Positions 31,134 through 55,586 of a DNA stretch of 64,000 bases are shown piece by piece. This DNA comes from Aliivibrio fischeri ATCC 7744 = JCM 18803 = DSM 507. GTDB lineage: Bacteria; Pseudomonadota; Gammaproteobacteria; Enterobacterales; Vibrionaceae. The stretch is from positions 992,001 through 1,056,000 of the forward strand of contig NZ_CP092713.1 of the NCBI RefSeq assembly GCF_023983475.1. The letters are read 5' to 3'. The position numbers were made by a program, and so were the translations under genes. The notes under the pieces are model-generated. The model saw only the letters and a list, made by a program, of their open reading frames with translations, did not search any database and was not told where the DNA came from. Numbering within the stretch: position 1 is the first letter of the stretch; each line of letters starts with the position of its first letter.

Positions 31134-31240
31134 GTGTAACAAAGCAATCAACACGATGCTAATTACACTCGGCGTTTGTGGTTTGAAGTATAATTGGTTT
31201 GGAAAGTCAGTCGTTCGCACGTGTTATTGCGGCGTTATGC
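31134..31240 (+). repeat. attC 36 (class 5)
   Basis: R'' GTGTAAC at 31134-31140, core GTTATGC at 31234-31240. Confidence 0.93.
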
Positions 31241-31249
31241 GCAGTCAAA

Positions 31250-31278
31250 TTAACCTATTGAATTGCCTGTGTTATAAT
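31250..31278 (+). promoter_or_regulatory. candidate promoter of the TIR-like gene
   Basis: TATAAT at 31273-31278 with a weak TTAACC at 31250-31255, 17 nt apart. It lies 31 nt before the ATG. Confidence 0.4.
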
Positions 31279-31309: not shown

Positions 31310-32161
31310 ATGGAAAAACCACGATTATTTATTGGATCGTCTTCGGAAAGCTATGATGTCGCAAGCGCTTGTAATGTCTGTTTAGATCGAAAAGTTGAAG
31401 TAACCATTTGGGATAAAATCTTTGAACCTGGCGGTGATACTTTAAGCTCATTGTTAACTAAAGCAAATAATGTGGATTTTGCATTATTTATCTTTACTCC
31501 TGATGACCTCACTAATATGAGAGAAAACTTAAAGCCAACCGTCCGTGATAATGTTTTATTTGAACTTGGATTATTTATAGGTGCTTTAGGAAAAGAACGC
31601 TGTTTTATATTAAAACCGCGAGATGAAAAGCTGCATATGCCAACCGACCTTCTTGGGATAAATACTTGTGATTATGCTCCAAATCGTGGTGATGGAGATA
31701 TGGAATCGGCAGTAAATGCAGCTTGTACTAGATTTATAACACAGATTAAAAAACTAGGTTTTTTTCAACGTCAGTCTAGAGATATTGTAAAAGTTAATAG
31801 CAAAAAAGGGATGCCTGAACACCAAATTACGGATTCGATGATTAAAATGATGGGGACGTTATTACCAACATTAACAGATCGTATGTATTTAAATTCTTCT
31901 GAATTTCAAAGTTCAATCCCAGATTATAAGTTCAACTTATCTTTAATTAAGCTTGAGAAACTCAATTTAATCGAAAGAGTTATAGATAGTGATTTTAATG
32001 GTAATGAGTGGTTTGGTTATAAACTCACAGGTGATGGAGGTGACTATCTTCTAGATAATGAAGATAGTTTAGATAAGATATTTAATCCGCCTCAAGTTCA
32101 AGCTATTCCAAAGCAATATGCTGAACCACCAATGAACTTTGATGATGATATCCCGTTCTGA
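31310..32161 (+). CDS. TIR-like nucleotide-binding effector with SSB-type C-terminal tail
   Basis: 283 residues. Residues 4-145 form a TIR-like domain of the CAP12/Pycsar-effector type: RLFIGSSSESYDVA, EVTIWDKIFEPGGDTLSSLL, VDFALFIFTPDD, RDNVLFELGLFIGALGKERCFIL (catalytic Glu context). Such domains cleave NAD+ or bind nucleotides when defence is triggered. Residues 165-255 look like a winged helix. The last residues are EPPMNFDDDIPF, matching the SSB C-terminal tip, preceded by a flexible Pro/Gln linker. The kinase at 54387 ends the same way. No cyclase is in the cassette, so the trigger may come through the SSB-like tail. Confidence 0.82.
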   Translation: MEKPRLFIGSSSESYDVASACNVCLDRKVEVTIWDKIFEPGGDTLSSLLTKANNVDFALFIFTPDDLTNMRENLKPTVRDNVLFELGLFIGALGKERCFILKPRDEKLHMPTDLLGINTCDYAPNRGDGDMESAVNAACTRFITQIKKLGFFQRQSRDIVKVNSKKGMPEHQITDSMIKMMGTLLPTLTDRMYLNSSEFQSSIPDYKFNLSLIKLEKLNLIERVIDSDFNGNEWFGYKLTGDGGDYLLDNEDSLDKIFNPPQVQAIPKQYAEPPMNFDDDIPF

Positions 32162-32168
32162 GGCGTGC

Positions 32169-32293
32169 GCATAACAAATGCATCAACACGATTTACTACA
32201 CTCGGCATCTCAGGTTGTCGGGTGTTTCTCGTTTTAAGGCGTCAATTTTAAGTATAATTGCATAGTAGCAAACGTGTTATGCAGGCGTTATAT
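32169..32293 (+). repeat. attC 37 (class 3)
   Basis: R'' GCATAAC at 32169-32175, core GTTATAT at 32287-32293. Arms ACTAC/GTAGC carry one mismatch. Confidence 0.93.
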
Positions 32294-37537: not shown

Positions 37538-37662
37538 CCTAGGTGAGATATTTCTCAAATACACTTAAATATTAATTGTTTAAGTGATAGTTAAGGTAGA
37601 ATTGATTTAATACTATAGATTGCAGCTATTTAGTAATCATTGAATAAAAAAGGACTTTGAAA

Positions 37663-37809
37663 ATGACAACTCTTCAAAAAATTGCAATAGGGCTTGGATC
37701 TGGTTTACTTGTTGGATCTGTTTCAACGGTGCTACCTAGCTTACAATTTTGGTGTTTTGTCATTGGATTAACTCTAGTTAATTACGTTATTGTTACGACG
37801 AAAAAATAA
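37663..37809 (+). CDS. 48-aa membrane mini-protein (copy 1 of 3)
   Basis: ATG 37663 after AAAGGAC. Reads MTTLQKIAIGLGSGLLVGSV, then a Pro turn and FWCFVIGLTLVNYVIV, ending TTKK: two short membrane segments with a basic C-terminus. The 125-nt leader and 119-nt trailer are conserved in all three copies and lack other frames. Possible small toxin-like or membrane-stress protein; function unknown. Confidence 0.65.
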   Translation: MTTLQKIAIGLGSGLLVGSVSTVLPSLQFWCFVIGLTLVNYVIVTTKK

Positions 37810-38053: not shown

Positions 38054-38178
38054 CCTAGGTGAGATATTTCTCAAATACACTTAAATATTAATTGTTTAAG
38101 TGATAGTTAAGGTAGAATTGATTTAATACTATAGATTGCAGCTATTTAGTAATCATTGAATAAAAAAGGACTTTGAAA

Positions 38179-38325
38179 ATGACAACTCTTCAAAAAATTG
38201 CAATAGGGCTTGGATCTGGTTTACTTGTTGGATCTGTTTCAACGGTGCTACCTAGCTTACAATTTTGGTGTTTTGTCATTGGATTAACTCTAGTTAATTA
38301 CGTTATTGTTACGACGAAAAAATAA
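38179..38325 (+). CDS. 48-aa membrane mini-protein (copy 2 of 3)
   Basis: Second half of a perfect 516-bp tandem duplication (37532-38047 and 38048-38563). Same start, ribosome site and sequence as copy 1. Confidence 0.65.
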   Translation: MTTLQKIAIGLGSGLLVGSVSTVLPSLQFWCFVIGLTLVNYVIVTTKK

Positions 38326-52732: not shown

Positions 52733-52857
52733 TGCTAACAAATGCATCAACACGATTTACTACACTCGGCATCTCAGGTTGTCGGGTGTTTCTCGTTTTA
52801 GGGTGTCAATTTTAAGTATAATTGTTTGGTAGTAAACGTGTTATGCAGGCGTTAAAT
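52733..52857 (+). repeat. attC 65 (class 3)
   Basis: R'' TGCTAAC at 52733-52739, core GTTAAAT at 52851-52857. Confidence 0.95.
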
Positions 52858-53169
52858 GCCAGTGATTAAAAAATCAATTGCAGCAATAATCTCATTTCTG
52901 AAAGTCGATAACTCATTAACAGGTTCGGATAAGATTTTAACTGGAACACTTGTCATTTGTTGTGTCAGCATTATAAAGTCACCTTCATCAATATGAATCG
53001 TAGGACAAAGGTGACTTGGTGCTTTCTTATCAAGTAGTTCGATTGGTGTTAATGGAATGACTAATCGAGTATTTAAGTTATCAAGTAGATCACTTTGAAC
53101 ATCGACAAAGTAAGGGTAGGTTTTAGCGGAACTTTTATCTTTGTTTTTATATAGCGTAAATTGAGACAT
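52852..53169 (-). CDS. ccdB: CcdB-family gyrase toxin (copy 2)
   Basis: 105 residues; differs from copy 1 at four or five positions (SSAKT for SSTKT, FIMLTQQ for FVMLTQQ, KILSEPV for KILTDPV). By recollection this version is the closer match to published CcdB(Vfi). Antisense to the array; its stop again uses the core-site TTA. Confidence 0.92.
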   Translation of the reverse strand: MSQFTLYKNKDKSSAKTYPYFVDVQSDLLDNLNTRLVIPLTPIELLDKKAPSHLCPTIHIDEGDFIMLTQQMTSVPVKILSEPVNELSTFRNEIIAAIDFLITGI

Positions 53170-53415
53170 TTAAAATACTCGGTATGAATCAGAAAAAAGA
53201 CCGTATTTATCGGTTAGTTCGTTGCAAGCATCAATAGCTTCAGAGTTTTGTTCTAACCATTCTTGTCTTTTTAGTTTGCTCACTTCCTGTGAAAGTGCTT
53301 TTTCCATTGTTGCTGAAAGGTTTATTTTTAAACGTTTTGCTTCAGCAAGCAGGTCACTATTTAAAGTTAAATTGGTCGCTTTCTTTACCGCTTGTGTATT
53401 ATATTGATTTCTCAT
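53170..53415 (-). CDS. ccdA: CcdA-family antitoxin (copy 2)
   Basis: 81 residues (MRNQYNTQAVKKATNLTLNSDLLAEAKRL). Differs from copy 1 mainly at the toxin-binding end (CNELTDKYGLF for CNELTEKHGLF), so cross-neutralisation between copies is an open question. Stop directly abuts the ccdB ATG. Confidence 0.9.
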   Translation of the reverse strand: MRNQYNTQAVKKATNLTLNSDLLAEAKRLKINLSATMEKALSQEVSKLKRQEWLEQNSEAIDACNELTDKYGLFSDSYRVF

Positions 53416-53471
53416 AACGTCACCACTCATGCGCATTAAGTATGTGGGTTCAGTATATAACGTAAAAAGGC

Positions 53472-54386: not shown

Positions 54387-55586
54387 TTGGAAAAATATGT
54401 TAGTCACCTGAAACGTCAGGGTTTTGAATTACTTGAAGATATTGGTTCAGGGCTTTCAGGCAAAACAAAGAAAGCAAAGCAGCCATCTCTTGAGCGCTTT
54501 GTAGCGATAAAGTTCTTCGATAGTTTGTTTGTTCGAAATAATGCTGAGTTAAGAAAAAAATTTAAACGTGAGGCGTTTATTCTCGCAGAAGCACAGCATC
54601 CAGCAATCCCTTATGTGATTACTCATGGCGAAGTGCCGCTAAATGATACTTCTATCCCATATATAGTGATGGAGCATATTGATGGAATAAATTTAGATGA
54701 ATATATACTTAAAAATGGTGCATTAGAGCAAGATAAAGTTATAAATATTGCTACTCAAATATTAGACGCTCTATTGTTAGTGCATTCAAAAGGTATAATT
54801 CATCGTGATATTAAACCGTCAAATATTATGTTATCTACGAATGGCCATGCTTATTTAATAGATTTCTCTATAGGCTTTGCTCCTTCAGGTAATCCTAATT
54901 TTACGAGAGCAACGAGGACTGGTGATCATTTAGGATCTGCCGAATATATATCGCCGGAACAAAATGTAGATATGAAAAATGTAGACCAAAGAGCAGATAT
55001 TTATTCTCTTGGTTTAACACTGTGTAAACTTCTAACTGGAGTTCCAACACTTTCAGCGTTGGATAAGCCAGATCTTTCAATCTCTTATGCTTTACGTAAA
55101 TTAATTATGAAAGCGAGTGAATATAAAGTAGAAGATCGTTATCAGACTGTCGATGAAGTTATAAGAGAATTAAGAGGGCTATCAAATACAGGACTTTTTA
55201 CTATTAACACACCAAGTAAAGCTTTATGTAATCATTTAAAATGTCCTGATGCACACTGGTCACCAAATGGTTTTTATAAAGGTGCTAATTTTAAAGAGCA
55301 ATGTACTGATATTCATTGTACGTCTTGTGGAGGTAAACTGATCTATCAATGCCGATGCGGTTATCCGATAGCAGATACTCAGTATTGCGGAGGATGTGGA
55401 AATGAATTATTTAAAATCCCAGAATGCTTAATGTGTGGTTCTCATTTAAGTAAAGTTGACATAGATAAAGATACATCTAAAGGATGCTCTAAATGTCAAA
55501 GTAAGCAGCAAAAACAAGTTCAAGTTTGGGGACAATCAGCACCAGTTGATCCACCTATGAATTTTGATGATGATATTCCGTTTTAG
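54387..55586 (+). CDS. Ser/Thr protein kinase with zinc ribbons and SSB-type C-terminal tail
   Basis: 399 residues, TTG start after AGAGG. The kinase domain (1-270) is complete: GSGLSGKTKKA (Gly loop), VAIKFF (Lys), IIHRDIKPSNIML (catalytic Asp), YLIDFSIGFA (DFS in place of DFG), GSAEYISPEQ (activation segment end), DIYSLGLTL. Residues 285-375 hold about 14 cysteines in zinc-ribbon pairs. The protein ends VDPPMNFDDDIPF, as the TIR-like protein at 31310 does, matching the SSB C-terminal tip. Bacterial kinases such as Stk2 act in abortive infection. Confidence 0.88.
   Translation: MEKYVSHLKRQGFELLEDIGSGLSGKTKKAKQPSLERFVAIKFFDSLFVRNNAELRKKFKREAFILAEAQHPAIPYVITHGEVPLNDTSIPYIVMEHIDGINLDEYILKNGALEQDKVINIATQILDALLLVHSKGIIHRDIKPSNIMLSTNGHAYLIDFSIGFAPSGNPNFTRATRTGDHLGSAEYISPEQNVDMKNVDQRADIYSLGLTLCKLLTGVPTLSALDKPDLSISYALRKLIMKASEYKVEDRYQTVDEVIRELRGLSNTGLFTINTPSKALCNHLKCPDAHWSPNGFYKGANFKEQCTDIHCTSCGGKLIYQCRCGYPIADTQYCGGCGNELFKIPECLMCGSHLSKVDIDKDTSKGCSKCQSKQQKQVQVWGQSAPVDPPMNFDDDIPF

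Follow-up and report, generated by a model that had tools for sequence, protein, structure and literature searches.

The locus considered here raises the question of why an immune-type protein carried by an integron cassette should end like a single-stranded DNA-binding protein (SSB). It lies in a stretch of 64,000 nucleotides of Aliivibrio fischeri ATCC 7744 (contig NZ_CP092713.1, positions 992,001 to 1,056,000), which is called the window throughout. The window holds 65 attC-like repeats by pattern, the gene at issue being one of its integron gene cassettes, and is a chromosomal integron array. In an initial annotation, a TIR-like defence protein had been described there whose last residues mimic the C-terminal tip of SSB (SSB-Ct). 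The features of this cassette, in window coordinates, are the following:

31137..31237 (approximate ends), + strand: attC-like repeat upstream of the TIR cassette (sequence pattern)
31250..31278, + strand: promoter-like site within the cassette, TTAACC-17-TATAAT with TG before the -10 (no more than chance)
31310..32161, + strand: TIR, predicted winged helix and SSB-tip protein of 283 aa (open reading frame), sole gene of the integron cassette
31322..31675, + strand: TIR domain, aa 5-122 (Pfam PF10137; PDB matches Cap12 and PycTIR)
31562..31564, + strand: codon of Glu85 within RDNVLFELG, invariant in the ten-row alignment A2
31832..32083, + strand: predicted winged-helix domain, aa about 175-258 (AlphaFold fragment model; named by eye)
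32084..32122, + strand: variable linker with Pro and Gln (alignments A2 and A4; low pLDDT)
32123..32161, + strand: SSB-like C-terminal tip EPPMNFDDDIPF and stop TGA, the last 12 codons (translation of the open reading frame; SSB comparison)
32172..32290 (approximate ends), + strand: attC-like repeat downstream of the TIR cassette (sequence pattern)

Domain architecture of the cassette protein

The description of the product as a TIR-like protein was borne out. Residues 5-122 match Pfam PF10137 with an E-value of 1.2e-30 and 106.4 bits against a curated cut-off of 24.7, which places the protein in this family. The related solved structures are those of Cap12 and PycTIR, and the PADLOC profiles for TIR effectors and PycTIR match the protein at 5.9e-45 and 6.7e-35, respectively. 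Glu85 and much of the TIR core were unchanged across the ten aligned relatives, and this residue is presumably the catalytic glutamate of TIR NADases. The Cap12 equivalogs of NCBIfam scored 113.2 and 90.5 bits against a whole-protein cut-off of 450, the better of them (NF050172) being confined to aa 3-148. Since this cut-off was failed and the gene stands alone in its cassette, membership of a CBASS or Pycsar system is not established. Among the window open reading frames near the gene, inspection by eye, together with a profile search of three neighbours, revealed no CD-NTase or Pycsar cyclase, and no cyclase was seen by eye at loci L144-L149, L150-L153, L157 and L158. The Pfam scan yielded PF10137 alone; the SSB OB-fold (PF00436) is absent, so that the protein does not belong to the SSB family.

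In an AlphaFold fragment model, helices in the C-terminal half are followed by two strands and a further helix, with a block pLDDT of 79-93, and this predicted fold was read by eye as a winged helix. The tail reached a pLDDT of about 57-64 in the same model, and residues 261-283 fell below 50 in a modest whole-protein model (pLDDT 62.9), in which no docking place of the tip was visible. On these models, the tail is probably disordered. As for the flexible Pro/Gln linker that had been described, proline and glutamine are indeed present, and its flexibility is suggested by the low pLDDT.

Comparison of the tip with the host SSB

The proposed mimic corresponds to the last 12 codons and the TGA of the open reading frame. 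The host SSB (L001, contig C1) ends in QYNEPPMDFDDDIPF, with the tip EPPMDFDDDIPF, and the TIR protein in QYAEPPMNFDDDIPF; the final 12 residues differ at one position, so that the mimicry holds against the host's own protein. Additionally, the last 23 positions of the NCBIfam SSB profile PRK09010 align to aa 261-283 of the TIR protein (E 0.0081), in a match of 16.1 bits that stays under the whole-protein cut-off of 260 bits. With an acidic run and I/V-P-F at the C-terminus, preceded by a linker of low pLDDT and predicted flexibility, the protein has the features of an SSB-Ct tip. The TIR gene and ssb share 83% DNA identity across the last 36 bases and 75% across 63.

At the base composition of the window, about 1e-4 occurrences of FDDDIPF before a stop are expected in a 4.5 Mb genome, a rough figure that ignores codon structure. 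In the 4.5 Mb genome to which the window belongs, the pattern DD[IV]PF-stop occurs three times (ssb, the TIR gene and a kinase cassette) and the reversed control pattern not at all. A chance match was rejected on this expectation, on the reversed controls, all of which gave 0, and on the genome surveys given below. A fusion with ssb by assembly error is unlikely, because the linker is unlike that of ssb and the intact gene has an attC-like repeat on either side.

An internal FDDDIPF, counted where the next codon has A, C or G (and not T) as its first base, was found twice in 150 family genomes, both times in extended SSBs, and the motif is therefore essentially C-terminal. In these two family SSBs (L297, L298), a further C-terminal extension follows FDDDIPF and the tip is internal. 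In G265, a genome bearing a TIR gene of this kind, the main SSB ends WDDDIPF and the TIR protein FDDDIPF. Judged by its sequence, the tip is very probably a functional mimic of the SSB tip.

Retention of the tip in relatives found without it

The conservation of the tip cannot be judged from surveys in which the tip is itself the query, and relatives found by similarity of the TIR core or of the whole protein were therefore used. Fifteen of these share the architecture of the window protein: L003, L016, L017 and L020-L022, found with the whole window protein including its tail, and L299-L307, found with TIR-core patterns. An [IV]PF tip preceded by acidic residues was kept in nine (FKNDVPF, FDKDIPF, FDNDIPF, two FDDDIPF and four FSDDIPF), four were tipless (L003, L017, L022, L300) and two ended SDKPPF (L301, L302). 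In contrast, the tip was present in none of 17 TIR relatives with another C-terminal half (L023, L024, L140-L143, L293-L296, L308-L314; Fisher 1.8e-4), in a post hoc comparison chosen after the data had been seen, where another C-terminal half means a query match ending at or before residue 194 and may include other winged helices. With duplicates removed (L302 is an exact copy of L301, and L306 almost one of L305), eight of 13 keep the tip (Fisher 2.2e-4). The window protein, L018 (interrupted by IS30), L025 (stop codons in the match) and L026 (another TIR with a short match, ending NKLI) were left out of both sets.

The 17 tipless proteins rule out the tip as a general feature of PF10137 TIR domains. 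Six of the 15 relatives lack it or have it altered, and it is thus common and not obligatory. It had been held that close homologues lacking the tail with no loss of function would speak against the mimicry; such tailless homologues do exist, namely the four tipless relatives and the two ending SDKPPF, which is the part of that argument on which these data bear. The linker before the tip is conserved neither in sequence nor in length (A2, A4). Seven plasmid relatives of the TIR protein (H1-H6, H8) were examined among 624 matching records, a search of the phage collection with the protein gave one match, and a search of the class with A2 matched four of 368 other genomes at E 1e-20, via the TIR half only.

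The tip also recurs within other families. Two homologues of a tip-bearing TIR_2 protein, at 49-50% identity, end QWDDIPF (L320, found through KEWQSEIE) and ESDDIPF (L321, on a Klebsiella plasmid). The plasmid matches of the TIR_2 protein came from seven records, with the C-terminus taken from one (H80); H81 equals it in coverage and identity, and H82-H86 are 28-39% identical in alignments that end before the tail. Among three viral DUF4062 relatives, one ends DDDIPF, one SDDSPF and one is without the tip. A tip on all DUF4062 proteins is ruled out by its absence from L317, L318 and L319, two of the tipless proteins being distant relatives.

Other carriers of the tip

Searching C-termini for the motif, as had been proposed, revealed FDDDIPF-stop on further CAP12 TIR proteins. 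Beyond what the initial annotation had foreseen, the tip was also found on other immune-type proteins, including the product of a second cassette of the window:

54387..55586, + strand: Ser/Thr kinase (aa 13-261) with a Cys-rich region, 399 aa (PF00069; PADLOC PD-T4-6)
55563..55586, + strand: SSB-like tip FDDDIPF and stop of the kinase, tail VDPPMNFDDDIPF (pattern scan and translation)

The kinase matches Pkinase (PF00069, E 1.5e-37) and, over aa 8-260, the PADLOC model PD-T4-6 (5.2e-58), and would by these profiles be a kinase of the PD-T4-6 type. It ends PPMNFDDDIPF, with the DD[IV]PF-stop pattern at 55569-55586. In a BLASTP comparison of one pair, the window TIR protein against the window kinase, the last 13 residues formed the sole match with an E-value below 1. 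A kinase that is 74% identical occurs in a family genome (L107). The C-terminal part had no plasmid match; in 394 order genomes the relatives were of the kinase domain only, none extending past residue 282 among the matches listed; and on viral contigs neither the kinase subfamily nor the L146 protein described below had a relative.

At the level of the family, at least one FDDDIPF-stop was present in 245 of 247 genomes, with a reversed control of 0 and roughly 0.03 matches expected by chance over the set. Single matches in genomes other than that of the window were taken as ssb, apart from the loci examined: 29 of the 30 matches at L052-L081, own ssb included, are SSBs by a simple motif, and the remaining one (L072), missed by this motif, has an SSB-like tail. 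Thirteen genomes besides that of the window have two matches each, and these 26 comprise 16 SSBs, among them second copies at L086, L089 and L093 (the other copy being taken as the main one), and 10 non-SSB proteins. Overall, 12 non-SSB carriers were counted in the 247 genomes, including the two of the window, and 10 of them are immune-like by profile or close homology, L091 by alignment and L096 by eye. CAP12 TIR proteins with the tip were found at L085, L090, L091 and L096, DUF4062 proteins at L084 and L101, and a TIR-like protein at L082; the 5' part of L082 and L096 is apparently out of frame. Flanks resembling attC were seen by eye at L085, L087, L090, L091 and L096.

Three of the family loci deserve a separate description. 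L087 (L150:4908-5297) is an orphan open reading frame of 129 aa with an SSB-like Gln/Gly linker and the tip, without a family match. The 271-aa product of L092 (L147:4188-5003), without a convincing family, has hydrophobic and coiled-coil-like stretches by eye and ends in QYLEPPMDFDDDIPF. At L148 (G585), the gene of a DUF4062 tip protein adjoins genes that resemble a small prophage by eye.

At the level of the class, FDDDIPF-stop was present in 222 of 369 genomes (reversed control 0), 14 of which, besides that of the window, have two or more matches, and 29 matches were examined. Three carriers are immune-like, namely a TIR_2 protein (L120/L145, 9.2e-14), a HerA-like ATPase (L122/L144; DUF87 1.9e-9, PADLOC HerA 9.8e-26) and a TIR-like protein (L132/L146, PADLOC TIR effector 8.2e-7). 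They are exceeded by five non-immune carriers (L110, L114, L119 with DUF3127, L126 with DUF6511, and L137), some of which look like ssDNA-binding proteins by eye. L113, L124 and L135 are fragments at contig edges that could not be placed, and L117 is an SSB by eye that the motif missed. The HerA-like ATPase (L144:3999-6269, G716) ends GFDDDIPF and adjoins an AAA ATPase and an S8 peptidase. Downstream of it a methyltransferase-like gene was seen by eye, and PADLOC also matches mad8.

On viral contigs, at least 85 open reading frames end FDDDIPF, in a set made of the pattern-scan matches listed and 12 further loci. Of those listed, 40 match an SSB profile built here, and many of the remaining 45 resemble phage ssDNA-binding proteins by eye; one is a CAP12 TIR (L181, on the same contig as L307), another an unclassified protein of 392 aa (L214), and two helicases (L222, L248) end DFDDDIPF and DSFDDDIPF. 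As many of the viral carriers are SSBs or look like ssDNA-binding proteins, and two are these helicases, the motif is not specific to immunity. On the evidence of profiles and motif matches, the tip is a mark of ssDNA-handling proteins and of putative immune-type effectors.

Genomic surroundings of the relatives

The TIR genes L301 and L303-L305 of viral contigs, and likewise the viral DUF4062 genes L315 and L316, have opposite-strand phage genes on at least one flank. Products of the neighbours tested are tail, baseplate and tail-completion proteins, together with an integrase and a transcriptional regulator. In P2-like prophages, positions of this kind house defence genes. No match was obtained by blastn with two prophage genes against E. 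coli genomes or with L303 against the phage collection. Close same-strand neighbours, which are possible partner genes, were found at L299, L145, L146, L017 and L157. Open reading frames lie just upstream of tip-bearing TIR genes at L145:6545-7213, L146:6065-6718 and L299:610-2930, and the one beside the L146 TIR gene has weak PADLOC PDC-M14B matches.

A possible role for the tip

As the feature common to the kinase and the TIR proteins, the tail is most readily understood as a module for input or addressing. Its presence on proteins of distinct profile families (CAP12 TIR, PD-T4-6-like kinase, DUF4062, TIR_2 and TIR-like) would argue for docking, with the qualification that TIR, TIR_2, TIR-like and DUF4062 proteins are all of TIR type and less independent of one another than of the kinase. 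The tip is likely to be the docking input of an antiphage effector. Both uses suggested for it in the initial annotation, sensing of phage replication and delivery of the effector to forks, are possible, and a narrower form of sensing is preferred.

In that form, which is favoured here tentatively, the tip would bait those phage proteins for which SSB tails are a docking site. The C-terminus of the TIR effector, in imitating the SSB docking tip, would fill the pocket in which SSB-binding proteins receive the SSB tail, each binding step being conjectural. The most informative ligands would be the SSB-tail binders that a phage brings into play during infection, namely single-strand annealing recombinases (Sak/RecT/Red-beta) and Orf-type mediators. 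Some of these ligands form rings or filaments, so that one ligand could gather many effectors, whose TIR domains would then come together and start NAD breakdown and abortive infection. In the accessible part of one report, efficient annealing by Sak of phage 80alpha needs both its own C-terminal domain and the SSB tail (PMC11846896), and in that of another a dodecameric phage portal is modelled as gathering TIR dimers of SpbK (PMC12847820). These two reports, those of SSB as a trigger, that of Swarozyc as a portal-assembled DUF4062 NADase (PMC13174449) and the shared tail together favour a bait for oligomeric binders. On the other side, the tip would be open to binding by SSB partners of the host as well, so that the sensor could be blunted or set off wrongly, and the triggers given for a DUF4062 system and for SpbK, in the portions available of their descriptions, are portals and not recombinases. 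Also against the bait stand the lack or alteration of the tip in six of the 15 relatives, the carriers of the motif outside immunity, and the same-strand neighbours at L145, L146, L299 and L157, which could be partners.

More broadly, it is conceivable, and put forward with some reserve, that the SSB tip has been repeatedly recruited as a portable immune bait onto different bacterial immune enzymes, the carriers being three TIR-type families, DUF4062 proteins, PD-T4-6-type kinases and possibly HerA-type ATPases. With such a tail, each enzyme could sense proteins at work on phage DNA coated by SSB, or assemble on them, in an arrangement that may be likened to the integrated decoys of plant immune receptors.

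A rather unlikely alternative is that the tip docks on host partners of SSB (chi, PriA, RecO, ExoI and others), by which the effector would be stationed at forks or sites of recombination, with a different trigger, for example DNA read by the winged helix or phage replication itself. Such recruitment would agree with a tip that copies that of the host SSB, with the prediction of a second, potentially DNA-binding domain and with the many host proteins that bind the SSB tip according to the accessible text of PMC10018359 and PMC11981726. However, a constitutive partner alone supplies no infection signal, and the same tip is found on kinase and DUF4062 proteins, neither of which was seen to contain a winged helix.

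It is less probable still, and indeed doubtful, that a host SSB-binding protein holds the tip in healthy cells and that the effector is freed by a phage SSB with the same tip or by phage inactivation of the holder. SSBs from viral contigs do carry an identical tip, and phage SSBs are given as triggers of several defence systems in the parts available of PMC12904381, PMC13381803 and PMC10732053. Nevertheless, this release would require the host partner to be in excess over the effector, and a dedicated guardee is less to be expected when the carriers are mobile elements that occur in different hosts.

Returning to a tip that baits phage proteins, two further explanations compete with it at very low probability. 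A near-exact mimic would compete with SSB, and the tail might thus jam SSB-binding proteins that the phage needs, the enzymatic domain mattering little; this is most improbable, given that SSB is abundant, that the ten aligned relatives show no change at Glu85 or over much of the TIR core and that a competitor has no need for a kinase. An ssb 3' end captured by recombination and devoid of any role, to which the 83% identity of the last 36 bases and the whole SSB-like linker of L087 might point, is just as hard to sustain, as identity drops to 75% over 63 bases, linkers differ while tips stay, tips show synonymous codon differences (partly conditional, most of those genes having been found by the tip) and the tip is kept in relatives found without using it.

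Relation to known systems

Cap12 (the TIR-STING of CBASS) and PycTIR (Pycsar) share with the window protein the TIR family PF10137 and the motif RDNVxFE. Both work with a cyclase partner and differ in their sensor domain, whereas the window protein has a predicted winged helix and the SSB tip, with no cyclase recognised nearby. The window kinase cassette, in turn, matches the PADLOC model of PD-T4-6, an anti-T4 gene, and we know of no SSB tip in its description. The tip of the window TIR protein is near-identical to SSB-Ct, but it stands on an enzyme-type protein.

To our knowledge, the way in which infection is sensed has been established for few single-gene TIR and kinase defence proteins. 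SpbK, a TIR NADase, has a sensing part of its own, activated by the ring-shaped phage portal YonE; this part is a folded N-terminal domain, and no SSB-like tail is described in the accessible portion of the report (PMC12847820). Swarozyc, a DUF4062 TIR-like NADase, is antiphage and portal-assembled according to the available text (PMC13174449), and the terms 'SSB' and 'single-stranded DNA' are absent from the main text of that paper. Its Pfam family differs from that of the window TIR protein, and some DUF4062 proteins share the tip. Hna, Retron-Eco8, Hachiman, Nhi and AbpAB likewise survey phage ssDNA handling, as far as the accessible parts of their descriptions go (PMC12904381, PMC13381803, PMC10732053), but they respond to SSB, whereas the window TIR protein imitates the SSB tail.

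In agreement with the initial annotation, which knew of no TIR protein with such a tail, no TIR protein or other immune protein with an SSB-like tip was found described in a partial coverage of the literature, with subscription papers mostly outside it. TIR effectors and SSB tips are known separately, and their combination and its recurrence appear to be new. A tail of about seven residues on different effectors points to a candidate input, the SSB interaction network, and a C-terminal [IV]PF preceded by acidic residues, on a protein other than SSB, provides a sequence handle for new defence genes. The shared tip may also be one reason for the recurrence of phage SSB and recombination genes among reported triggers.

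Further features of the cassette array

The promoter-like pattern at 31250-31278 was found once, against a mean of 0.7 in shuffles, a count that does not exceed chance; no promoter-like site was found before the kinase gene. Elsewhere in the window, an identical 50-aa peptide is encoded at 37657-37809 and 38173-38325, each copy being followed by an attC-like repeat, as in duplicate cassettes. On the minus strand, two adjacent open reading frames at 52852-53436 resemble, by eye, a CcdA/CcdB toxin-antitoxin pair in a cassette.
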